Source: Bacilli bacterium (GTDB lineage Bacteria > Bacillota_I > Bacilli_A > RF39 > UBA660). From it: 33,312 nt of DNA. The DNA is taken from the NCBI GenBank assembly GCA_017433415.1, contig JAFRHI010000021.1, forward strand, positions 1 through 33,312, written 5' to 3'. Below the pieces are notes generated by a model. It did no database searches. It was not told where the DNA came from and saw nothing but the letters and a program-made list of their open reading frames with translations. Of this stretch, positions 10,782 to 33,312 are shown one piece after another (position 1 is the stretch's first letter; the number at the start of each line of letters is the position of its first letter). The position numbers and the translations under genes were made by a program.

Positions 10782-10798
10782 ATAATTGTTTTTGGTGA

Positions 10799-10988
10799 TA
10801 AGTAATTAGTAGTATATTAGTTTTATTTAAGAGATTTAGTGGTTGGTGAAAACTAAAAAAGAATAATATATGAATTACATACTTTGAGAAAAATCGTTTG
10901 TCGCGTTAAGACATAAAGTGCATGTTTTACATGAATTAAGGTGGTACCGCGAATAATTCGTCCTTATGGATGGTTATTCGTTTTTTTT
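10799..10988 (+). promoter_or_regulatory. T-box riboswitch, tyrosine specific
   Basis: Stem I begins AAGTA (pairs with TACTT near 10880) and continues with TATATTA/TAATATA. The specifier loop between them reads TGAATTACA, placing UAC (Tyr, 10876-10878) followed by A, as expected for tyrS. The distal loop contains GGTTGGTGAAAA. The conserved T-box AAGGTGGTACCGCG is at 10938-10951. The terminator stem is CGAATAA/TTATTCG (10950-10956 and 10974-10980) followed by eight T. Binding of uncharged tRNA-Tyr stabilises the antiterminator and turns tyrS on. Confidence 0.95.
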
Positions 10989-11001
10989 AGGAGGAATTGA
11001 A

Positions 11002-12228
11002 ATGACATTATATGAAGAATTAATGTGGAGAGGACTTATTCAAGAAATTAGTAGTCCTGATTTGATTGAAAAATTAAATAATGGAGGAATGACATTTTAT
11101 ATTGGTACGGATCCAACTGCGGATTCAATGCATATTGGTCATTATTCATCATTTTTGATATCTAAAAGATTAGCTAAAGCAGGACATCATCCATTATTAC
11201 TTGTTGGAGGAGCTACAGGTCTTATTGGAGATCCTAAACCAACGGCTGAAAGACCAATTATTAGTAAGGAAGAAGTAGAAAAAAATATTAAGGGTCTTAC
11301 AGAACAAGCTAAAAAGATATTTGGTTTTGAAGTTGTTAATAACTGGGATTGGACTAAGGATATTAATATTTGTGATTTTTTAAGAGATTATGGTAAATAT
11401 TTTAATATTAATTATATGCTTGCAAAAGATCATGTGAAATCGAGAATGGATGTAGGTATTACATATGCTGAATTTTCTTATATGTTACTACAAGCAATGG
11501 ATTTTTATTATTTATATAAAAACTATAATTGTGAATTACAGGTAGCAGGTAGTGATCAATGGGGTAATATTACTTCTGGAATTGAACTTATTAGAAAAAA
11601 ACTTGATAAAGAGGCATATGGTATGGTTATGCCATTAGTTACTGATTCAACAGGTAAAAAGTTTGGTAAGACTGAAGGAAATGCTTTATGGTTAGATGAG
11701 GGTAAAACATCTTCTTATGAGTTATATCAATACTTAATTAATCTAGAAGATTCAATGATTATTGATTATTTAAAGAAATTGACATTCTTAAGTAAGGAAG
11801 AGATAGAAAAAATAGCCAAAGAAAATGAGAAATGTCCCGAGGAAAGAATTGCTCATAAGGCTTTAGCTAGAGAAATAATAACCGATTTACATGGTGAGGA
11901 AAGCTATAAAGAGGCAGTATCAATTTCAGAAGCACTATTTAGTGGTGATATAAAGAAATTATCTTTAAAAGATATAGAAGTAGCATTTAAAGGATTAGCT
12001 CCATTTTATATTGCTGAAGATATTAATATTGTTGATTTACTTGTTAATAATAAGATTGTTTCTAGTAAAAGAGAAGCTAGAGAGTTTATTGGTAATGGAT
12101 CTATTACTTTGAATGGTGATAAGATTACTGATGTGGAAATGATTATTTCTAAGAAAAGTTGTATTGAGGATAAATATCTTGTTATTAGAAGAGGTAAAAA
12201 GAAATATTTTATTGGAATTTATGAATAA
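11002..12228 (+). CDS. tyrS: Tyrosyl-tRNA synthetase
   Basis: Class I synthetase, 408 residues. Visible are the HIGH motif HIGH at 44-47 within IGTDPTADSMHIGH, the KMSKS equivalent KFGKT (about residue 220), QVAGSDQWGN in the tyrosine pocket, and a C-terminal S4 RNA-binding domain (about 340-400; VNNKIVSSKREAREFI, GSITLNG). ATG 11002 is chosen since AGGAGG (10989-10994) directly follows the T-box terminator; an upstream in-frame ATG at 10966 lies inside the terminator hairpin. Expression depends on the tyrosine T-box leader. Confidence 0.98.
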   Translation: MTLYEELMWRGLIQEISSPDLIEKLNNGGMTFYIGTDPTADSMHIGHYSSFLISKRLAKAGHHPLLLVGGATGLIGDPKPTAERPIISKEEVEKNIKGLTEQAKKIFGFEVVNNWDWTKDINICDFLRDYGKYFNINYMLAKDHVKSRMDVGITYAEFSYMLLQAMDFYYLYKNYNCELQVAGSDQWGNITSGIELIRKKLDKEAYGMVMPLVTDSTGKKFGKTEGNALWLDEGKTSSYELYQYLINLEDSMIIDYLKKLTFLSKEEIEKIAKENEKCPEERIAHKALAREIITDLHGEESYKEAVSISEALFSGDIKKLSLKDIEVAFKGLAPFYIAEDINIVDLLVNNKIVSSKREAREFIGNGSITLNGDKITDVEMIISKKSCIEDKYLVIRRGKKKYFIGIYE

Positions 12229-24140: not shown

Positions 24141-24166
24141 AAAGAAGATTTTCTCTTCTTTTTTAT
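24138..24166. terminator. Bidirectional terminator between the membrane protein gene and spoIVA
   Basis: AAAAGAAGA/TCTTCTTTT stem with flanking A and T tracts; overlaps the spoIVA stop codon (24163-24165). Confidence 0.8.
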
Positions 24167-25347
24167 ATTACGATAGTAATGACGTTGTTACTACCTTTAT
24201 TTACAACTCTTGATAGGGTGTTTTGTAGTTTAAATCTTATGTTATCAGGCATAAGATTTATTTTTGATTGTATTCCTTCTTGAACTATAGAATCTAGGCT
24301 TCTACCAAATATTTCACTTTTCCAGATTTCGTTAGGATCTTTATCTTGATTTTTAGTTAGATAGTCTATTAATTCTTTAGATTGTATTTCACTACCAATT
24401 ATTGGTTCAAAAGTAGATTCAACATCAACTCTGATCATATGGATTGATGGAGCGACAGCTTTTAATTTAACACCAAATCTTGGCCCTTGTTTTATTATTT
24501 CAGGGGTATTCAATTTCATATCTTCTATTGATGGTGTGGCAATTCCATAACCTGTTTGTTTAACCATTTTTAAGGCGTATTTAATTTGATCATATTCTTT
24601 TTTTGCAGTATTAAATTCTTGAAATAAAGATAATAAATCTGCTTTGTTTTTTATATCTACATCGATTAATTCTTTTAGTGTTTTATTGTATAATTCTATT
24701 GGCGCAGTTAAATTTACAGTTATTATTCCTGTAGATGTGTCAATATCTGATAGATAGCATTTTTCTATATATTCATTATCAAGAAAGTGTTCTGTAATTT
24801 TTTCAACGTCTTTTATTTTATCTATTTCAATAACACTTTCTTTTATGGAATTAATATATGATTTTTTTATTTTATTATCTGGATTTAGAATGGCTATCCA
24901 TTCCGGCATATTTACTTTTACTTCTAGTACTGGGAATTCATATAAGGCTTCACGTAATATGTTATACATGTCTTTTTCGTTCATTGATTCAACACTAATT
25001 GGTAAAACTGGTACATTATATTCTTCTTGTAGAGATTTTGAAAGGTTTTCTGTCTCAGAATTAGTTGGATGAGTGGAATTTAAAATTACTATAAATGGTT
25101 TTCCTATTTCCTTTAATTCAGTAATGACTCTTTTTTCAGCATCTAAGTAATCTTTTCTTTGAAATTCTCCAATTGAGCCATCTGAAGTCATTACTATACC
25201 AATTGTGGAATGTTCTTTAATTACTTTTTCAGTACCTATTTCAGCAGCTTCTGTAAATGGTATTTCATCAGTATACCAGTATGACCTGTTTTCGTGATAC
25301 CCATAAGTCTTTTTAAAAATTGCTCCAAAGCAATCGTATTTTTTAAC
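24163..25347 (-). CDS. spoIVA: SpoIVA, C-terminal ~394 codons only; gene interrupted by an element
   Basis: SpoIVA is the mother-cell ATPase that polymerises on the forespore and forms the basement layer of the coat. The sequence is unmistakable: IPFTEAAEIGTEKVI, EHSTIGIVMTSDG, YEFPVLEVKVNMPEW, YALKMVKQTGYGIATP, GVKLKAVAPSIHMIRVDVES and IFGRSLDSIVQEGIQ. Against the 492-residue B. subtilis protein (recalled) the fragment corresponds to residues ~93-492 with one loop about six residues shorter, matching its 394 codons. It begins at DCFG, the Walker B aspartate region (D97 in B. subtilis). The part with Walker A (K30) and the sensor threonines is missing and should lie beyond the element. The frame reaches the recombinase stop codon in phase. 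An ATG at 25191 is internal and has no ribosome site. Confidence 0.92.
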   Translation of the reverse strand, partial: VKKYDCFGAIFKKTYGYHENRSYWYTDEIPFTEAAEIGTEKVIKEHSTIGIVMTSDGSIGEFQRKDYLDAEKRVITELKEIGKPFIVILNSTHPTNSETENLSKSLQEEYNVPVLPISVESMNEKDMYNILREALYEFPVLEVKVNMPEWIAILNPDNKIKKSYINSIKESVIEIDKIKDVEKITEHFLDNEYIEKCYLSDIDTSTGIITVNLTAPIELYNKTLKELIDVDIKNKADLLSLFQEFNTAKKEYDQIKYALKMVKQTGYGIATPSIEDMKLNTPEIIKQGPRFGVKLKAVAPSIHMIRVDVESTFEPIIGSEIQSKELIDYLTKNQDKDPNEIWKSEIFGRSLDSIVQEGIQSKINLMPDNIRFKLQNTLSRVVNKGSNNVITIVI

Positions 25348-25350
25348 TTA
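25336..25350 (-). other. Element/spoIVA junction (attachment-site half)
   Basis: SpoIVA similarity starts at the DCFG codons (about 25335) directly after the recombinase TAA (25348-25350). The three preceding codons (K, K, Y) do not look like a Walker B strand and may be element-derived, so the crossover probably lies within these 15 bases. A dyad ATTGCT-ttgg-AGCAAT (25319-25334) abuts it and may be part of the target site. The exact core needs the other junction. Confidence 0.6.
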
Positions 25351-26934
25351 TACTAATACTTCACTTTTCTTTATTCTATAATGAATTTCTAGTTTTTTAT
25401 CTTTTGTTACATATATTTTATCAATTAATCTATTCATTATTTCTCTTGTAGGATTTTTCATATCTAAAAAATTCTTAATTATATCTAAATATTCAACATA
25501 ACAAGAAGAATCTTCATCAATACTAGAAATTTCATCTTTTAACTTCTCCAATTTGTTATTTGCAGTTTTAATATCTTCTTCAGTAGCATTAAATAATCTT
25601 TGATAAGTTTCTACACTTATTACATTATTGAATTTATCATCATATAAAGCATCTTGCTTTCTTTTTAAATCAGCTATTGTATGATTTAATTCATCTATCT
25701 TCTTTAATTTATCTTGTTTTGGATCAACATATTCACTTTTAATAATATTCTCAAATTCTTCTTTATCATTAATATATTGATTAGCCATATTACTTAATTT
25801 ATCATAAACTGTATTTTCTAGCTTTGTATAGTTAATATAATGAGAAAAGCATATATCATACTTACTAAACTTACGATAGTTATTGCAATTCATTGTAACT
25901 CTATCTCTTTTCTTATCATAACTAATACTCATTCTAGCACCACAATCTTTACAAAAAACTAAATCCGATAAGACATAGTCAACATTTCTTCGGTCAGGAC
26001 TATAAGTGTTTGAAGAATCTTTAATACTTTGTGCTATTTCAAATGTTTTCCTATCAACTAGTGGCTCGTGTGCATTTTCTTTAATGCACCATTCGCTTTC
26101 AGGAACACTTTTTCGTTTCTTTATCTTATAATTGACTTTTTGAAATTTGTGTTGAATTAAATCTCCAATATAAACTCTGTTTTTAATAATATTACTGATA
26201 GATGTGTGTTTCCATATTTCAGGATGGTCAAATTTATTTAATTTAGAACCAGAGTATTTATACATAATTGGTGTTGGTAATTCTTCTCTTGTTAGTATCT
26301 CTGCAATCTGACTACTACCATAACCTGCTACATATAAATCAAATATTCTTTTAACAACAGGGGCAGTTTCAGGATCAGGCACTAATTTGTGCTTATCTAG
26401 GGGATCTCTCATATAACCATAAGGAGCAGCACTACCACAGAATTTACCATCTTTTTTCATTTGAAGTAAGTTTGAACGAACTTTTTTAGAAATATCTTTT
26501 GCATACATATCATTCATACTTAATCTAAATGGCATCATATCAGAGCCACTTGTTTCAAAAAAAGTATCTATATCATCATTTACTGCAATATATCTGACAT
26601 CATTTTTAGGAAAATAAGTTTCAACATAATAACCTGTCATTATATGGTCACGACCTAATCTTGATAAGTCTTTTGTTATAACCATATTTATTTTTCCATT
26701 CTCAATGTCATTTAGCATTCTTTTAAACTCTGGACGCTCAAAATTTGTTCCTGTATAACCATCATCAACATAAATATCAACTGCAACTAAGTTTTGTGCT
26801 TTTAAATAACCAATTAATAGACTTCTTTGATTGGTGACACTTTCTGATTCCATATCATCACCATCTTCACGAGATAGTCTTATATAAATGGCTATTTTAA
26901 ATATTGTATTGTCTATTGTATATTTATTATACAC
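25348..26934 (-). CDS. Large serine recombinase
   Basis: 528 residues. N-terminal resolvase domain: catalytic Ser21 in YIRLSREDGDD, then SRLGRD (91-96) with the active-site arginines. A recombinase domain follows (KLVPDPETAPVVKRIFDLY, about 184-202), then a zinc ribbon with C328, C331, C350 and C362, and a long coiled coil (about 390-480). The subgroup looks like TnpX/TndX (RLSREDGD, ESESVTNQ) rather than phiC31. It catalyses integration and excision between short att sites via a Ser-DNA link. The start is GTG 26934 with AAGGAG six bases upstream. Its stop codon lies in the same phase as the spoIVA fragment and next to it, the usual place for a serine integrase beside its att site. Confidence 0.95.
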   Translation of the reverse strand: MYNKYTIDNTIFKIAIYIRLSREDGDDMESESVTNQRSLLIGYLKAQNLVAVDIYVDDGYTGTNFERPEFKRMLNDIENGKINMVITKDLSRLGRDHIMTGYYVETYFPKNDVRYIAVNDDIDTFFETSGSDMMPFRLSMNDMYAKDISKKVRSNLLQMKKDGKFCGSAAPYGYMRDPLDKHKLVPDPETAPVVKRIFDLYVAGYGSSQIAEILTREELPTPIMYKYSGSKLNKFDHPEIWKHTSISNIIKNRVYIGDLIQHKFQKVNYKIKKRKSVPESEWCIKENAHEPLVDRKTFEIAQSIKDSSNTYSPDRRNVDYVLSDLVFCKDCGARMSISYDKKRDRVTMNCNNYRKFSKYDICFSHYINYTKLENTVYDKLSNMANQYINDKEEFENIIKSEYVDPKQDKLKKIDELNHTIADLKRKQDALYDDKFNNVISVETYQRLFNATEEDIKTANNKLEKLKDEISSIDEDSSCYVEYLDIIKNFLDMKNPTREIMNRLIDKIYVTKDKKLEIHYRIKKSEVLV

Positions 26935-26936
26935 TT

Positions 26937-27119
26937 TTAACTCCTTTCGTTAGACAACACTTTCACTTCATTAGTTGATTTCATTATACTATTTTTTGAG
27001 TCCTTTTTAAATACTTTTAATGAATTTTTATGAGCTATATAATATTTATATATACAACTCTTTAACACTTCTTTTAGATCACAACCATTACTATCATAAA
27101 ACTCTAGTGTTTCATACAT
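26937..27119 (-). CDS. Small protein upstream of the recombinase
   Basis: 60 residues, MYETLEFYDSNGCDLKEVLKSCIYKYYIAHKNS followed by a basic tail. GGAGG sits seven bases upstream of ATG 27119. It ends two bases before the recombinase GTG; its last codons contain the recombinase ribosome site, so the two are translationally coupled. No family recognised. Its position makes it a candidate accessory factor, such as a recombination directionality factor, but nothing in the sequence proves this. Confidence 0.65.
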   Translation of the reverse strand: MYETLEFYDSNGCDLKEVLKSCIYKYYIAHKNSLKVFKKDSKNSIMKSTNEVKVLSNERS

Positions 27120-27121
27120 GA

Positions 27122-27178
27122 TTATTCCTCCACAATGAATTTTATGTGTAATAGTTTATAAAAATTACTATTCTTCAT
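27122..27178 (-). CDS. Possible 18-residue leader peptide
   Basis: ATG 27178 to TAA 27122-27124, preceded by AAAGG about 11 bases upstream. The stop lies inside the leader of the 60-residue gene, just after its GGAGG, suggesting coupling. It could equally be a chance frame. Confidence 0.25.
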   Translation of the reverse strand: MKNSNFYKLLHIKFIVEE

Positions 27179-27227
27179 AAATTATCACAACCTTTCTTTC
27201 AATTTTTTAATTATTTAATTATTTAAT

Positions 27228-27647
27228 TTATCTAAAATCTTTCAATATTTCATCCATTTCTTTTTGCTGTTCTTCACTCATTGGTAATGCTTCTTCTCGT
27301 GTACCATTCCAAACTTCTACACCATCTGGATCATATCGTATATGAGGACCACTCTTTCCATTTATTAATTCTTCCTGATTATCAGATATATGAGTTACTG
27401 TGATAAAACTTTGTATTTTACCATTAGTAATATAAGAATTAAGATAACCTTTAATAAATACCTTTGTTCCTTTAACAAAAAAATCTTTATATATCGTATA
27501 AAGATTCCTATTAATATTTAAACTAGAATAAACTTTTCTTTTATCATATTTAAGAGTAATTAAACCAAATTTAATATAATCTTGATTATTATCTGTAACA
27601 TTATTTATGGTTCCAGATATAATAATTTCATTTAAATCAATTTCCAT
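27228..27647 (-). CDS. OB-fold, single-stranded-DNA-binding-like protein
   Basis: 139 residues. The first ~100 alternate as beta strands with the SSB-like pattern: NEIIISGTINNVTD, YIKFGLITLKYDKRK, then VKGTKVFIKGYLNSY and GKIQSFITVTHIS. This is an OB fold resembling PriB/SSB proteins of mobile elements. The C-terminal ~40 residues are acidic and polar, but the canonical DDIPF tip of cellular SSB is absent. AAGGAAG lies upstream of ATG 27647. Close to two winged-helix proteins, so it probably works in element replication or recombination. Confidence in the fold is moderate. Confidence 0.65.
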   Translation of the reverse strand: MEIDLNEIIISGTINNVTDNNQDYIKFGLITLKYDKRKVYSSLNINRNLYTIYKDFFVKGTKVFIKGYLNSYITNGKIQSFITVTHISDNQEELINGKSGPHIRYDPDGVEVWNGTREEALPMSEEQQKEMDEILKDFR

Positions 27648-27662
27648 TTTTAACTTCCTTTC

Positions 27663-27745
27663 AATTAATTAATTTATAATTTAAATTATTTAAATAAATT
27701 TAAAATTTATATTATTTATTAATATTATTTATTATATTATTTATT
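27663..27745. repeat. 83-base tract with no G or C
   Basis: An uninterrupted A/T run with irregular TTATTTATTA-like repetition, between the winged-helix gene and the SSB-like gene. Suited to easy strand opening. A hairpin (27753-27784) is adjacent. Confidence 0.75.
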
Positions 27746-27752
27746 CTGTAAG

Positions 27753-27784
27753 AAGATATTCGCTATATTCACTAGCAACATCTT
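27753..27784. repeat. Interrupted hairpin next to the A/T tract
   Basis: AAGAT/ATCTT outer arms and GCTA/TAGC inner arms with a seven-base loop; just downstream of the winged-helix gene stop. No T run on the minus strand, so not an obvious terminator. Confidence 0.5.
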
Positions 27785-27794
27785 GCGTTTACCC

Positions 27795-28070
27795 CTAGAA
27801 TATATCTGCTAAATATATTTTTCTTTCATTAGGTTCTTGTTCAACTCTGATATAATTTTTTCTTCTTAATGAAGTTATACAACTAGTAATTGTTCTTTTA
27901 GATACTTTCATAAGATTACCTAAACGCTTATTACTAGCATAACAAAAACCATCTTGCATAGTTAGAGTAGTTATTAAACCCATCAATACTTTAGAAGTAG
28001 AAGATATATCTTCATCTAATAAAACCACCATAGGCAATTCAACATATTTTAAATTTCTTAAATTATCCAT
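27795..28070 (-). CDS. Winged-helix DNA-binding protein, replication-initiator-like
   Basis: 91 residues. NLKYVELPMVVLLDEDISSTSKVLMGLITTLTM is followed by a clear helix-turn-helix (CYASNKRLGNLMKVSKRTITSCITSLRRKNYIRV) and a wing (EPNERKIYLADIF). This matches the N-terminal domain of RepA/DnaD-type initiators and similar element regulators, but no catalytic or C-terminal domain follows, so it is either a stand-alone DNA-binding domain or a truncated initiator. AAGGAG precedes ATG 28070. Its mRNA leader contains a terminator and a structured region. Confidence 0.75.
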   Translation of the reverse strand: MDNLRNLKYVELPMVVLLDEDISSTSKVLMGLITTLTMQDGFCYASNKRLGNLMKVSKRTITSCITSLRRKNYIRVEQEPNERKIYLADIF

Positions 28071-28104
28071 ATTATCAAACTCCTTTCTTTAATTTTTAGG
28101 TATT

Positions 28105-28133
28105 AAAAAAACTTGTAAAAATATCTTACAAGT
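28105..28133 (-). terminator. Intrinsic terminator within the element operon leader
   Basis: On the minus strand ACTTGTAA/TTACAAGT (8 bp, loop GATATTT) followed by six T. It lies 35 bases before the winged-helix gene, the position of an attenuator. Confidence 0.8.
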
Positions 28134-28285
28134 CATACTGATATAAAATGAACTAAGGCAATAGTAACCCTGAGACTTTATTTTAAATCCTGTCTCTAGG
28201 ATTGAAGCAGTTCAGTCTTTCGACTAGGTACTAACATAAATCTCCGAACATTTACTGTACCTTATTTACTAGCGATTATTCTATT
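28134..28285 (-). ncRNA. Structured, pseudoknot-capable RNA region, likely attenuator leader
   Basis: Visible pairings on the minus-strand RNA: AGGTAC/GTACCT (28257-28262 with 28226-28231), which encloses TAAAT/ATTTA; a GAAA tetraloop hairpin AGTC/GACT (28214-28225); AATCCT/AGGATT (28186-28203), whose loop GAGAC can pair with GTCTC (28172-28176) as a pseudoknot; and AGTTCA/TGAACT (28149-28154 with 28209-28214) closing that region. The segment is visibly less AT-rich than its surroundings and contains no gene. It does not match a riboswitch class I know. Confidence 0.55.
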
Positions 28286-28552
28286 CTAGCAAATTGTGTA
28301 TTCATATAGTCCATTGTCGTATTCATTGAACTTAATATAATTATATTTTTCTAATAATTTTAAGTTCTTTCTGAATCCAACATTTTTCAAACCTTTAATC
28401 TGACCTTGTATTCTACCAATATTCACATGATTGATAGTTCTATCAAATCCTTCTGAATATAGATAAGCATATATATCTTTAGCTTCAAATGTGATATTCT
28501 TATCTTTCCATATCCTATGGTCTGTCATATCTAGATGTTTAATTTTTCTCAT
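28286..28552 (-). CDS. Small winged-helix protein
   Basis: 88 residues: MRKIKHLDMTDHRIWKDKN, then FEAKDIYAYLYSEGFDRTINHVNIGRIQ and LKLLEKYNYIKF followed by a short wing. This resembles the KAKGLYAYL-type winged-helix domain of plasmid and phage replication regulators. AAGGAG lies 13 bases upstream of ATG 28552, longer than usual, and a five-codon frame starting at 28556 overlaps the start. Transcribed from the consensus promoter at 28620-28648. Probably the first gene of the element operon that ends with the recombinase. Confidence 0.68.
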   Translation of the reverse strand: MRKIKHLDMTDHRIWKDKNITFEAKDIYAYLYSEGFDRTINHVNIGRIQGQIKGLKNVGFRKNLKLLEKYNYIKFNEYDNGLYEYTIC

Positions 28553-28590
28553 TCATATCGTTTTCTCCTTTCTTCAAATTTACTACTTTT

Positions 28591-28606
28591 GAGTACATCA
28601 GTACTC
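28591..28606. promoter_or_regulatory. Candidate operator palindrome
   Basis: GAGTAC-atca-GTACTC, a 6-bp dyad just downstream of the expected minus-strand transcript start. A half-site ATACTC recurs at 28648-28653. Likely target of the divergent XRE regulator. Confidence 0.55.
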
Positions 28607-28619
28607 GTTTTCAATTTCA

Positions 28620-28648
28620 ATATTACATCATAATTACCAACTTGTCAA
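28620..28648 (-). promoter_or_regulatory. Promoter of the element operon
   Basis: On the minus strand TTGACA (28643-28648), 17-base spacer, TAATAT (28620-28625). Strong, divergent from the repressor promoter. Confidence 0.8.
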
Positions 28649-28677
28649 TACTCTTTTATTCATTTTTTGAAAAAATA

Positions 28678-28706
28678 TTGACTTCTGTATTCACTTATGC
28701 TATTAT
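28678..28706 (+). promoter_or_regulatory. Promoter of the XRE regulator gene
   Basis: TTGACT (28678-28683), 17-base spacer, TATTAT (28701-28706) with extended -10 TG at 28698-28699. Confidence 0.78.
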
Positions 28707-28726
28707 TAATGTGTGAGGTGAAGAAA

Positions 28727-29227
28727 ATGTCTAATGATAAAACAATCGGTGAAATAATTACCGAAGCAAGAGAATTAAAGAAATTATCTCAAAGACAACT
28801 TGCAAAATTAGCAGGAATTAATAGTTCAGGAATATCTAAAATAGAAGCTGGTGAAAGAGATCCTAGTCCAAAGATATTAAGAAAGATAAGTAAATACATA
28901 GATGTTAATTATAATGATTTAATGTATAAAATGGGATTAGGTATTGAAGTTAGTCCATTAAATCCTTTTATTAAAGATTATTATTCAAATCTAAAAGGTG
29001 ATGAACTAAATGAAGCTGAAATCAATGTTTTAGGTAATAAACAAAATCTTGAAAAATTAGTTTCATCTTGTGAAGCAAAATTAAAAAATGAAAACATATT
29101 AGAACAAGAAAAGGATTTATTATTACATACTATTGAAGATACTAATTATCAAATAAATACACAAAATGAAATTATTAATTTAATTCAAAGTTTAAAAGTA
29201 AAGGAGAGAAATAAAAATGCGAAATAA
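28727..29227 (+). CDS. XRE-family transcriptional regulator
   Basis: 166 residues. N-terminal Cro/C1-type helix-turn-helix (about residues 5-62): IGEIITEARELKKLSQRQLAKLAGINSSGISKIEAGERDPSP. The C-terminal ~90 residues are charged helices (EAEINVLGNKQNLEKLVSSCEAKLKNEN) suited to dimerisation or partner binding. No metallopeptidase motif is present. ATG 28727 follows GAGGTGA. It is divergently transcribed from the element operon with operator-like palindromes between, the standard layout of an element maintenance repressor. It overlaps the downstream membrane protein gene by 11 bases. Confidence 0.9.
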   Translation: MSNDKTIGEIITEARELKKLSQRQLAKLAGINSSGISKIEAGERDPSPKILRKISKYIDVNYNDLMYKMGLGIEVSPLNPFIKDYYSNLKGDELNEAEINVLGNKQNLEKLVSSCEAKLKNENILEQEKDLLLHTIEDTNYQINTQNEIINLIQSLKVKERNKNAK

Positions 29228-29645
29228 AAAAATATCTAAAATAATTTTAATTTTATTAACAATATTCTTTATAACAGGATTTGTACTATCACAGGCAATA
29301 GCCACTGACTATTTTAAAAATATGTTTTGGGCATCGTATGCATTTCTTATTGTGGGAATATTATTAGATGTTAATGCTTGGAGCAAATTGGGATTAGATG
29401 TAGATAAAGGCAAAGCAATAACCATCAGAAGAAGTTTCGATGATAATACTACTTTATTAGCAGTATCTCATGGAACATTAACATTAGTTATTTTACTTTT
29501 TGATACATTCAATCATAATGTAATGAAAAATAATTATGTAATAATTGGTATGTTCATTATGACATTAGAATTTGAATTATTTACATATTTATCAATATGG
29601 AATGCTAAAAGAGATACAGCAAAATTATTAAAAGGTAGTAAATAA
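29217..29645 (+). CDS. Four-helix membrane protein paired with the XRE regulator
   Basis: 142 residues with hydrophobic segments at about 8-27, 36-54, 80-97 and 104-128, short polar loops and a basic C-terminus. AAAGGAGAG precedes ATG 29217, which overlaps the regulator stop, so expression is coupled. No known family. An anti-repressor, immunity, or toxin-like role are all possible for a membrane protein locked to an XRE regulator; the sequence does not decide. Confidence 0.75.
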   Translation: MRNKKISKIILILLTIFFITGFVLSQAIATDYFKNMFWASYAFLIVGILLDVNAWSKLGLDVDKGKAITIRRSFDDNTTLLAVSHGTLTLVILLFDTFNHNVMKNNYVIIGMFIMTLEFELFTYLSIWNAKRDTAKLLKGSK

Positions 29646-29651
29646 TTTAAA

Positions 29652-29699
29652 AAAAATAACCTTTTACCTTTTTATTAGATTAGGTATTAGGTTATTTTT
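29652..29699 (+). terminator. Terminator after the XRE/membrane protein pair
   Basis: Outer stem AAAAATAACC/GGTTATTTTT, inner stem TACCT/AGGTA (29665-29669 and 29682-29686), ending in a T tract. Confidence 0.75.
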
Positions 29700-29703
29700 A
29701 TAT

Positions 29704-29969
29704 AAGAATACGTGGCACGTTTTGCGAGTTTACTCGTGAAAGTGGCGATAGTATTCTTCTTTTTATTTAAACTAGATTTAAATAAAAAGGCAACATTACT
29801 ACTTACGAATAGTTTGTAGTTATGTTGCTTATCGGGTTTCAAAAGGGGTGTCCCTTTGCACACTATTCCTAGTTGGCTAAAAGCCAACTTGGTAGTGTGT
29901 TACTATCTTGTCTTAAAGATAGTCTATTGCGAAAATTCATTAGTTACAAAGGTTCTTTTGAATTTTCGC
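29704..29969. repeat. Array of seven consecutive hairpins, noncoding
   Basis: No gene is visible here. Inverted repeats tile almost end to end: 29704-29711/29751-29758 (8 bp, with CGAG/CTCG inside); 29759-29771/29777-29789 (13 bp perfect); 29790-29796/29822-29828 extended by ACTAC/GTAGT; 29842-29847/29852-29857; 29859-29865/29893-29899 enclosing an 8-bp AGTTGGCT/AGCCAACT; 29902-29909/29916-29923; and 29929-29939/29959-29969 (11 bp perfect). The longest unpaired gap is 13 bases (29829-29841). It may be a large structured RNA or a single-stranded-DNA structure such as a transfer or replication origin. Confidence 0.8.
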
Positions 29970-29981
29970 CTCTAATGTATT

Positions 29982-32900
29982 TTAATGATTTATTCTCAAT
30001 ATTCTTGCATAACCCTCTGGACGATTTTGCTCAAATTGATGTGAAACTTGTTCAATATCAATTTGTTGATTATTAGCTAGTGCATATTCTTGTATAGTTC
30101 TCTTTGTTGATTCGTATTCTATTTGTGCTTTTTTATCAAAATCTAATACACAAGAACTACTAATAGCACCATTTGAATAAGCAATATACCAATTATCACC
30201 CATAAAAATTATTGTTCCTTTTGGTATTAAAGCACTCTCAAATTCAGTTTCATTAAAATATGAATATATACCATTTATTTTATTAATTTTGCTCATTATA
30301 TTTGCATCTAGATTTTCAGTTGCTATTATTTTATTTCTTGGTCTATTATATACTGCTTGTACATCTTTTGGTTTAATATCTTTTGGTTTAATTCTTCCAA
30401 TTGTTTTGGTTGATGCCATACATAATAAAGAATAATTTCCATAATCTGTTGTGAAAGTATCATTTTCTTGTAAATTTTGAGTATTTGTAACAAAATCTTT
30501 CCAATCTTGACTATCATGATCCATTGGGTTATTACCAATTTTATTTACAACATCAATATTTACATTTGAAGGAACACAATCTAAAGCATAACTCTTTGTT
30601 ACAAAGACAAAATCAATTTTATCTTTTTCATTTTCATTATTTTGTGATTTTTCAACAATATCAAGACATGCTTCTCTAAATGTTTCTATTATTTCTTTTA
30701 ACTCATTTGCATAACTACCTTCATATCCATATCCACCCTCATCATAAATAGTTCTTAGTTGGTTAATATAAACACTATTACCATTTCTAAATCCAGCTGC
30801 TCTTGCAATAAAATTTCCAAAAGTATCAGTTATTTTAATAACAAATCCATTTTTATCTAAAGCACAATAGTGCAAGAAGTCATTGTCATTACCATCAACT
30901 CTAAAACAAGCATTAGTGTTTATTCCTGATAATAACAAAGTTTCATCTTGCGAGTCATACATTGAATATACATAATTAGTTGTAGAACCTTTTATGTATG
31001 GCACAGTAGATTTATCTCTTTTTGCCATTTCACAAACTAATTCTTTTGCAATTCTAACTATTTCTTGTGCATCTTCATTTGTATATTCTTGATATCTACA
31101 TAATTTTACTATTACATCTTTTCCGAGTATAGCTAATGATTGATCATCAGCACAAATACTAAGTTCGCATAGTGACATAACATCACTATAATTATTTATA
31201 TCATAATTAAATTGTTTAGCTAGTTTAATAACTTCGCTCATATAATCCATTGTTGCCATAATTGTTTCTTTATCGATACCACATTGAATTAATGATTCGT
31301 TTTCATTTTTATTTAAAAACAATAGTAACCAAACTAATCCATTATTAATGACATAATTAGTTAATAATGAATATGATTCATCATCTAAAATACTACTAGG
31401 TTCAATTATATCGGTATCAACAAATATTCCATTTAATAAATTTCCAAAATTAAAATTCTTTTTATAATATTCCAAAGCAAATTCAAAATATTCATCATTA
31501 AATGGTAATTCATCTTCCAATCTTTTTAAAATACTATTATCGATGTTTTTGTCTATATCTAATGTTCTTGCTTTAAATATAATTTCTTTTTTAACTTTTT
31601 CAAATATTTTTTGTTTTTTTCTATATTCGTTATATTTAGAGACTTCTACAGCATCAAATAAAGGACCTTGATATCTATATTTACCTGTTTCGTTGTCATA
31701 TATAATTATATCCATATATTTTATGACTTCTTGATCAGTATATTTAATATATTTACTATTTAGCCTATTAACTAATTTACTCGCTTCCTCATATCTTTTA
31801 TAATTATTAAATCCACGAGGTGCTTTTATAAATGAATCCATTTTAGAGTAGCCAAATTTTACAAAATTATCTATCATATTCCATATTAAATTTTCATCAA
31901 AAGTTTCGCTACATTGAACAACAAGATTATTTAAAAAATTACAAATTCTTTCGTCTTTTATTGAATATAATTCATTAAATTTTTCTTTTTGTTTTTTTTC
32001 TATTGTTTTTTTGTAAATAACAGGATGATTTTTTCTTGGAATAAAGAATTCTTTAATGTATTCATTATAAGATTCTAAAATTGTTTTTTTATAGTTTTCT
32101 TTGCTTTTAGAAACATACAATGCTGATAGTTTTGCAATAGTATCACGAGAAACGTTAATTTGTTCTAAACTAGAGTTACTATGTATTACAACATGATATT
32201 GTTTCATGGCTTGCATCAAAAGATTAAACTTATCTTCCAATGCACTTTTCATTTCAACAAGAAATTCCAAGCTTTTTATAGCTTCATTAAAATTATTAGT
32301 ATTTTTTAATTCTGTACAAATCTTTCCAAAAATGTTTGTGTAATTTTCTATATAACATGCTCTATATGCATCCCACTCAGTTTCAGCACATTCTTCAAAT
32401 ACAGATTTAAAATTGTTAATAGTTGGATATATGCTGATTGCATTACTAAATAATCTACTAAATCGTTCTATATACTTATCAATACTATCTGGATAATCAG
32501 CAAATACATCTTTAAAGTCATCATCGTTCTTATCAAAAAACTCAAACTTTTTAATAGTGTTCATCATAGCATCATCATTTGAAAAGTCGTTTAAAGAGTG
32601 TTTTTCTAATTCTCTAGTGCTAAAATCAAAATCATGTACCAATAAAAACTTAAACACTTCAGGATATTGTCTTGCTTGATATGATACATATTGTATTGTA
32701 TTTGGATTTCTTTTAATAGAGTTTAAAACTATTTTTTCATTTTCTGCTAAATCTATACAATAATTTGTTGTTTTAGATAATTCATATCCAGATTTTATTG
32801 TTTCCTCAATTAAATCATCGTAATCTTCTTTAGAAAATGATTTCCAATCAACAAAGTTTGCCGAATTTGCATCTTGTCTAATTGAATTTAAAGCTATTGC

Positions 32901-33308
32901 ATAATTATTTTTTAAAAAAGCAGGACTATTAGGTTTTAAAATATATTTTTGATTAATAGCCATCATTCTTACTCTTTCGAGCAATCTAGGATTAAAATAT
33001 TCTATATAGTTAGCACTATTAACATCTCTGTCAATAGCAGCATTAATACATTCATCATTTTTTAAAATAAAACTTGGAGTCTCTTCATCAAAAATACAAT
33101 TTCCATTTAAAAAAGCATTTATAAGATATTTTTCTTGTTCTTTTGTTAATTCGAAATCATTAGGTCTTTTTTCTTTAATAATATCTCTTAACATAATTAA
33201 AGTGTCTCTATTAAATAAACTATCATCTGTTATTGTAATATTCCTATTTACTATAATAAAGTCAAATAATTTTTTTAATTCATAATTATTTAATCTCACT
33301 TTTACCAT
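29982..33308 (-). CDS. 1108-residue protein of unknown function with N-terminal helical repeats
   Basis: No signal peptide, membrane segment or nucleotide-binding motif is visible. The first ~210 residues carry three repeats of about 50 residues, near 77-103, 128-154 and 181-210, each built around an A/S-I-x-x-(D/N)-x-N-(S/T) helix followed by a Y/F-(V/I) step (DVNSANYIEY, DANSANFVDW, NPNTIQYVSY), recalling DUF4116-type repeats. The middle (about 210-790) is helical and Lys/Glu/Asn-rich. The C-terminal ~310 residues are a globular mixed domain (CFRVDGNDNDFLHYCALD, GNFIARAAGFRNGNSVYI). ATG 33308 lies four bases from the window edge, so the true start may be upstream; a GTG at the fourth codon is also possible. 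Confidence 0.75.
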   Translation of the reverse strand: MVKVRLNNYELKKLFDFIIVNRNITITDDSLFNRDTLIMLRDIIKEKRPNDFELTKEQEKYLINAFLNGNCIFDEETPSFILKNDECINAAIDRDVNSANYIEYFNPRLLERVRMMAINQKYILKPNSPAFLKNNYAIALNSIRQDANSANFVDWKSFSKEDYDDLIEETIKSGYELSKTTNYCIDLAENEKIVLNSIKRNPNTIQYVSYQARQYPEVFKFLLVHDFDFSTRELEKHSLNDFSNDDAMMNTIKKFEFFDKNDDDFKDVFADYPDSIDKYIERFSRLFSNAISIYPTINNFKSVFEECAETEWDAYRACYIENYTNIFGKICTELKNTNNFNEAIKSLEFLVEMKSALEDKFNLLMQAMKQYHVVIHSNSSLEQINVSRDTIAKLSALYVSKSKENYKKTILESYNEYIKEFFIPRKNHPVIYKKTIEKKQKEKFNELYSIKDERICNFLNNLVVQCSETFDENLIWNMIDNFVKFGYSKMDSFIKAPRGFNNYKRYEEASKLVNRLNSKYIKYTDQEVIKYMDIIIYDNETGKYRYQGPLFDAVEVSKYNEYRKKQKIFEKVKKEIIFKARTLDIDKNIDNSILKRLEDELPFNDEYFEFALEYYKKNFNFGNLLNGIFVDTDIIEPSSILDDESYSLLTNYVINNGLVWLLLFLNKNENESLIQCGIDKETIMATMDYMSEVIKLAKQFNYDINNYSDVMSLCELSICADDQSLAILGKDVIVKLCRYQEYTNEDAQEIVRIAKELVCEMAKRDKSTVPYIKGSTTNYVYSMYDSQDETLLLSGINTNACFRVDGNDNDFLHYCALDKNGFVIKITDTFGNFIARAAGFRNGNSVYINQLRTIYDEGGYGYEGSYANELKEIIETFREACLDIVEKSQNNENEKDKIDFVFVTKSYALDCVPSNVNIDVVNKIGNNPMDHDSQDWKDFVTNTQNLQENDTFTTDYGNYSLLCMASTKTIGRIKPKDIKPKDVQAVYNRPRNKIIATENLDANIMSKINKINGIYSYFNETEFESALIPKGTIIFMGDNWYIAYSNGAISSSCVLDFDKKAQIEYESTKRTIQEYALANNQQIDIEQVSHQFEQNRPEGYARILRINH

Positions 33309-33312
33309 CCCC

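Follow-up and report, generated by a model that had tools for sequence, protein, structure and literature searches.

Why does a Bacilli genome carry seven hairpins packed side by side between positions 29704 and 29969 of a contig of 33,312 nucleotides (the window, which is the complete contig C16)? The initial annotation had described such an array and had proposed that it could be either a large structured RNA of the kind carried by phages or a single-stranded DNA fold such as a transfer origin. The seven hairpins are indeed present, and they fold far beyond chance. As single-stranded DNA, the + strand of the interval reached -66 kcal/mol against -21.4 +/- 3.2 in shuffled versions (z -13.9, equalled in 0/200 dinucleotide shuffles), and the - strand fold was weaker (-60 kcal/mol, z -12.3). 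When 29650-29981 was folded as RNA, z was -14.8 on the + strand and -12.0 on the - strand. The placement between convergent genes was borne out, since the array is bounded by open reading frames at 29217-29645 (+) and 29982-33308 (-). The latter adjoins the array, encodes 1108 aa starting 4 bases from the contig end, and had no match in Pfam, PHROGs or NCBIfam. Elsewhere in the window, a T-box leader (10786-10968) lies directly 5' of a tyrosyl-tRNA synthetase gene (10966-12228).

Hairpin array and predicted nick site

All seven hairpins are described here on the + strand. H1 (29704-29758) belongs to a conserved module of 61 nt (29701..29761), in which a nearly invariant core, GGCACGTTTTGT..TGAAAGTGGCGATAG, is set within covarying stems. 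H2 (29759-29789) has a 13-bp AT-rich perfect stem and is a poorly conserved spacer hairpin, and H3 (29790-29828) is an accessory and optional hairpin whose apical ACTTACG..AGTTTGT is conserved while its stem varies among homologues. These three abut exactly, in agreement with the boundaries first reported as shared to the base. H4 (29842-29857) is a mini-hairpin, AAAGGG/CCCTTT, immediately 5' of the nic hairpin H5 (29858-29899), which is of the MOBV/pMV158 type, GCACAC...TAGTGTG. H5 is followed by the post-nick hairpin H6 (29902-29923; ACTATCTT/AAGATAGT) and by H7 (29929-29969), which has an 11-bp stem and is optional. The loops of H3 (29797-29820) and H7 (29937-29960) carry similar strings, TTACTACTTACGAATAGTTTGTA and ATTAGTTACAAAGGTTCTTT, which are perhaps binding sites of one protein.

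Such an interval between convergent genes might also hold several transcription terminators in succession, or serve as an insulator, and CTTTTT does follow H3 on the - strand and H1 on the + strand. Moreover, an inverted repeat at 29652-29699, which is outside the array and follows the + strand 142-aa open reading frame, looks terminator-like and is likely the terminator of that frame. However, a terminator scan of 29600-30000 passed none, as the initial annotation had anticipated when it dismissed terminators, and neither the invariant loop and internal sequences nor the nic core would be necessary for termination. We regard this reading as extremely improbable.

The + strand at H5 reads GCACACTATTCCTAGTTGGCTAAAAGCCAACTTGGTAGTGTG/TTAC, and the inverted repeat ends exactly at the nick motif. 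The oriT core consists of H5 plus the following bases (29858-29902), in the form GCACAC-stem-loop-TAGTGTG/TTA, with the nick core TAGTGTG/TTA at 29893-29902. The MobM relaxase of pMV158 cuts 5'-GTGTG/TT-3' beside such a hairpin (PMC5863519, PMC5090054). By its match to this cleavage sequence, the nick in TAGTGTG/TTAC is predicted between G29899 and T29900, and the + strand would be transferred with its 5' end at 29900. For comparison, the oriT of pUB110 has the form AGCACACACTTTAT..ATAAAGTATAGTGTG/TTATACTTTA, with AGCACACACTTTATGAATATAAAGTATAGTGTG/TTATACTTTA at nic. The combination of hairpin and nic motif was found once only in the 1.2-Mb source genome, GCACACTA-N8-60-TAGTGTG having a single occurrence there.

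Conservation and covariation among homologues

DNA searches of 293 related genomes returned about 40 long homologues, and the core pattern is present in at least 114 genome contigs. Among the 80 core-bearing contigs whose titles were listed, most are from uncultured Bacilli, Bacillales, Erysipelotrichaceae and Tenericutes, many of them from animal guts, and a few are labelled Clostridia or Clostridium. Fetched neighbourhoods together with a scan of genome contigs for the core gave 106-108 distinct arrays, in which the nick core is kept; an identical 15-mer, TAGTGTGTTACTATC, is found in 34 of 108, and most of the others differ only after TTAC.

Covariation had been set beforehand in the initial annotation as the first half of the refuting test, and compensatory changes were found in the homologues. 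Across 48 aligned cores, both sides have changed at six pairs of the H5 stem, for instance C-G in 28 and T-A in 13, or G-C in 30, C-G in 9 and T-A in 9; other pairs alternate between T-A (30) and A-T (18) and between A-T (30) and G-C (18). The arms of 32 distinct H5 pairs matched in 295 of 320 cells, against 243.7 +/- 7.7 when the arms were swapped (2000 trials, maximum 269 paired cells). The stem of H6, which starts two bases past the nick, is retained in 89 of 106 arrays via 19 different stem sequences, and was recovered in only 5 of 106 after shuffling. G-T wobbles outnumber A-C pairs in H5 by 22 to 5, which favours the nicked strand as the folding strand, and in 76 of 90 arrays it is the nic strand on which the accessory region 5' of H4 forms the stronger fold. 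As the arrays are related to one another, these covariation and wobble counts are not independent events.

The outer hairpins are modular. In 95 arrays with enough 5' sequence, the H4 motif is present in 89, H1 in 50, H3 in 54 and the H7 motif in 28; some arrays carry an unrelated hairpin in place of H3, and H7 was not seen in arrays abutted by mob.

These data also bear on a structured RNA, either a small RNA or a large ornate noncoding RNA, read from the + strand. The fold (z -14.8), the covariation and the one-strand G-U preference suit RNA as well as single-stranded DNA. However, promoter-like sites were not above chance (1 found against 1.9 expected), no Rfam match came near the gathering score, and the linkage to relaxases described below is fixed. 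The phage RNA first considered likewise loses ground, since outer hairpins are exchanged for unrelated ones between homologues while the relaxase nic motif stays, and the core pattern had no match in 2.9 million viral contigs. H1 had none there either; a looser pattern had 13 matches. Nucleotide searches of plasmid and phage records with the whole array gave chance-level matches only. An RNA role for the array is thus very unlikely.

A probable mobilizable element inserted in spoIVA

The part of the element in the window spans 25276..33312; its left end is inside spoIVA, and it continues on contig C29, where the other element end is found. A large serine recombinase is encoded on the - strand at 25348..26934 (Pfam Recombinase 9e-25, Resolvase 4e-20; PHROG integrase 4e-107) and adjoins the 3' part of spoIVA (24163-25191). 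The 5' part of spoIVA is at C29:3951-4331, beside a 330-aa protein and a MobV relaxase, and the joined flanks restore an open SpoIVA frame (..KTPWYTDEIPFTEA..). The element ends bear the arms GGGTATCAC / GTGATACCC, as expected of the attP of a serine recombinase. Its own integrase and att sites, with spoIVA split, are features expected of an integrative mobilizable element (IME). The array itself was considered as the attachment site and rejected, since the att site lies some 4.4 kb off, within spoIVA. The 330-aa protein (L005, C29:2854-3846), between the relaxase and spoIVA, has no family match; its C-terminus has a Cx6Cx2Cx5C motif that resembles the iron-sulphur loop found in glycosylases of the endonuclease III kind. 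The splitting of spoIVA, a sporulation gene, is comparable to the skin, SPbeta/spsM and gin elements, and a brief literature search found no published case of an element in spoIVA.

The relaxase gene (C29:1502-2797) encodes the HUH motif HLDEKTPHIH and is assigned to MobV by NCBIfam (111.3 bits, cut-off 100) and to Mob_Pre by Pfam (7e-30). The only relative of its product in the PDB is a plasmid recombination enzyme (entries 4lvi-4lvm and 5n2q), which is MobM of pMV158. It is only 26-37% identical to the listed plasmid relatives, the nearest named ones being MobV proteins of Priestia (34-37%). That this relaxase belongs to the same element as the array is probable from the spoIVA join, the attP symmetry and a relative genome, G089, in which the same kind of element has its gene set at both spoIVA ends (recombinase 94%, relaxase 79% and 330-aa protein 86% identical).

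Linkage between array and relaxase extends beyond this genome. In 42 of 80 loci listed from the DNA core alone there is a MOBV relaxase homologous to that of C29, and in 40 of these 42 it is encoded on the opposite strand, 3' of the nick and often at a distance of 50-150 bp. The loci with no relaxase mostly reach contig ends within a few kb; several have room, and none was seen there. By genome, array and relaxase co-occur with an odds ratio of 14.8 (p 6e-11), a value that counts related genomes as independent. The negatives in this 2x2 test included 19 mob-positive genomes, about ten of which proved to carry a diverged array, and the same nic core was found again in elements with a more distant relaxase.

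Since both the MobV relaxase and the missing spoIVA half are found on C29, with the joined ends in frame, we conclude with very high confidence that the array is the oriT of a MOBV integrative mobilizable element inserted in spoIVA. This conclusion draws on observed features, namely the fold, the compensatory changes, the nic motif, the linkage and polarity of the relaxase, and the element boundaries, and both the nick-site motif and the relaxase that the initial annotation had suggested looking for are there, the motif in H5 and the gene on C29. Of the two readings first offered, the transfer origin has held, on the nic motif, the fixed polarity of the relaxase and the compensatory changes.

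From these features we infer nicking and transfer as follows. The serine recombinase would excise the element from spoIVA, and the MobV relaxase would recognise H5 in the + strand, cut between G29899 and T29900, and remain on the 5' end. The + strand would then leave through a type IV secretion system supplied by a conjugative element resident in the cell, to be recircularised at the same hairpin, after which the recipient would synthesise the second strand. H4, H5 and H6 would form the relaxase-specific core, and the remaining hairpins, H1 to H3 and H7, may act on the same single strand. No type IV secretion gene was noticed in the 12 kb of the element seen, its middle being unassembled. Genes for coupling proteins are found elsewhere in the genome, on contigs C18, C4 and C30, indicating that helpers may be present.

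As of a 2017 review (PMC5704250), oriT and nick positions were known for some canonical IMEs only. Like the array, the MOBV1 oriTs of pMV158 and pUB110 (MobM/Pre) have a hairpin ending at TAGTGTG/TTA with the predicted nick dinucleotide, a Mob_Pre relaxase and a small palindrome after the nick. However, the stem sequence of the array is unrelated and six further hairpins are packed around it; moreover, the array occupies the 3' side of mob and the strand opposite to it, whereas the oriT of pMV158 is 5' of mob on the coding strand, an order that nicking does not require. In the Priestia MOBV plasmids (pBEH8, pELP1.24a_6 and a P. flexa plasmid), a GCACAC..GTGTG hairpin is likewise preceded on its 5' side by a row of hairpins, and their oriT regions fold with z of -6.3 to -8.9. 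The row layout is therefore common to plasmids, which was not obvious from pMV158, although in those of Priestia the oriT immediately precedes mobV on the coding strand, and no H1 core was seen by eye in the 200 nt upstream of mobV. In IMESag-rpsI, a MOBV1 IME with oriT, mobSag and ssoA, there are likewise a MOBV relaxase, an oriT hairpin and a single-strand origin near mob (a role proposed here for H1); it differs in having oriT 5' and ssoA 3' of mob, and in being integrated 3' of rpsI and not in spoIVA. What is new here is an array arranged beyond mob, together with the H1 module.

The H1 module across oriT types

An alignment of 38 copies of H1 shows 22 invariant columns (GGCACGTTTT..TGAAAGTGGC) and 8 pairs with two-sided changes, although the copies were gathered by a pattern that includes part of the core, so that GGCACGTT and GAAAGTGG are invariant partly because of how the copies were selected. 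Within the stems changing on both sides there is an invariant or nearly invariant T-G/G-T tandem. The covariance model R1, which is not tied to the collection pattern, found H1 in 61 of 293 genomes, all of one family, and in none from the other families sampled.

Copies of H1 are found on the nicked strand, 5' of the nick, in three types of oriT whose relaxases have diverged. Two oriT-like types besides the first, with hairpins 5' of which most of the remaining H1 copies lie, were seen in the same hosts (L293-L346): GCCC[CA]C-hairpin-TAGGGGG/TTA, before a Mob_Pre relaxase of the HYDETSPHMH type, and AACTCAC-hairpin-TAGTGAG/ATA, before one of the H(L/F)DE(S/D)TPHMH type, each on the same strand as its relaxase gene and with the nick position placed by analogy. 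A recognised nick hairpin is present at most 420 nt 3' of H1, on the same strand, in 48 of 59 contexts, with H1 53-278 nt 5' of the nick, and an HUH relaxase is encoded within 5 kb in 43 of 59. Relaxases of the three oriT types (A, B and C) all match Mob_Pre, with about 25% identity over 220-240 aa between type A and types B and C, and an alignment of about 50 aa only between B and C. H1 is a previously unlisted module common to three oriT types in the same group of gut bacteria. That it stays nearly constant letter for letter while its surroundings and the relaxases diverge argues for a recogniser shared among the hosts, and H1 would most likely be a site recognised by the host or by the helper. 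On balance, we favour a relaxase-independent single-strand module 5' of the nicks, which may represent a new class of single-strand origin restricted to these hosts or else a common signal at which a shared conjugation machine docks.

Our first guess is that H1, possibly with H2 and H3, could be a single-strand origin beside the oriT core, where the complementary strand would be primed; this is compatible with the oriT and has a reasonable chance of being correct, if short of an even one. In plasmids the single-strand origin is usually 5' of the dso, and its activity is orientation-specific (PMC4595007); some of these origins are host-restricted (PMC5703833). H1 resembles these orientation-specific hairpins (ssoA, ssoU, ssoT and sso1 of ICEBs1) in lying near the nick on the transferred strand; it sits 5' of the nick in all three oriT types, and among the 293 genomes it was confined to a single family. 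However, it has no sequence match to known single-strand origins, the array has no DNA match to plasmid records beyond chance, and the single-strand origin of ICEBs1 sits on the other side of oriT (PMC4595007). Moreover, no H1 match was found on the coupling-protein contigs of its own genome, which suggests that conjugative elements in that genome can dispense with H1.

H1 might instead be a docking or relaxosome site for an accessory protein, encoded by the helper or by the element, and not a priming site, a possibility that we put forward tentatively. The invariant two-sided internal sequence with its tandem T-G/G-T pairs suggests a specific binder, and H1 occurs on elements that encode relaxases of the MOBV type as well as serine recombinases; however, the analysis, which was not systematic on this point, turned up no accessory protein shared by the three element types.

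The oriT described here yields a rule by which transfer origins can be recognised from sequence, and the nick predicted to the base, across a large group of uncultured Bacilli of the gut whose mobile elements have only distant relatives among named plasmids. H1, in turn, may explain how many different mobilizable elements establish in the same hosts.
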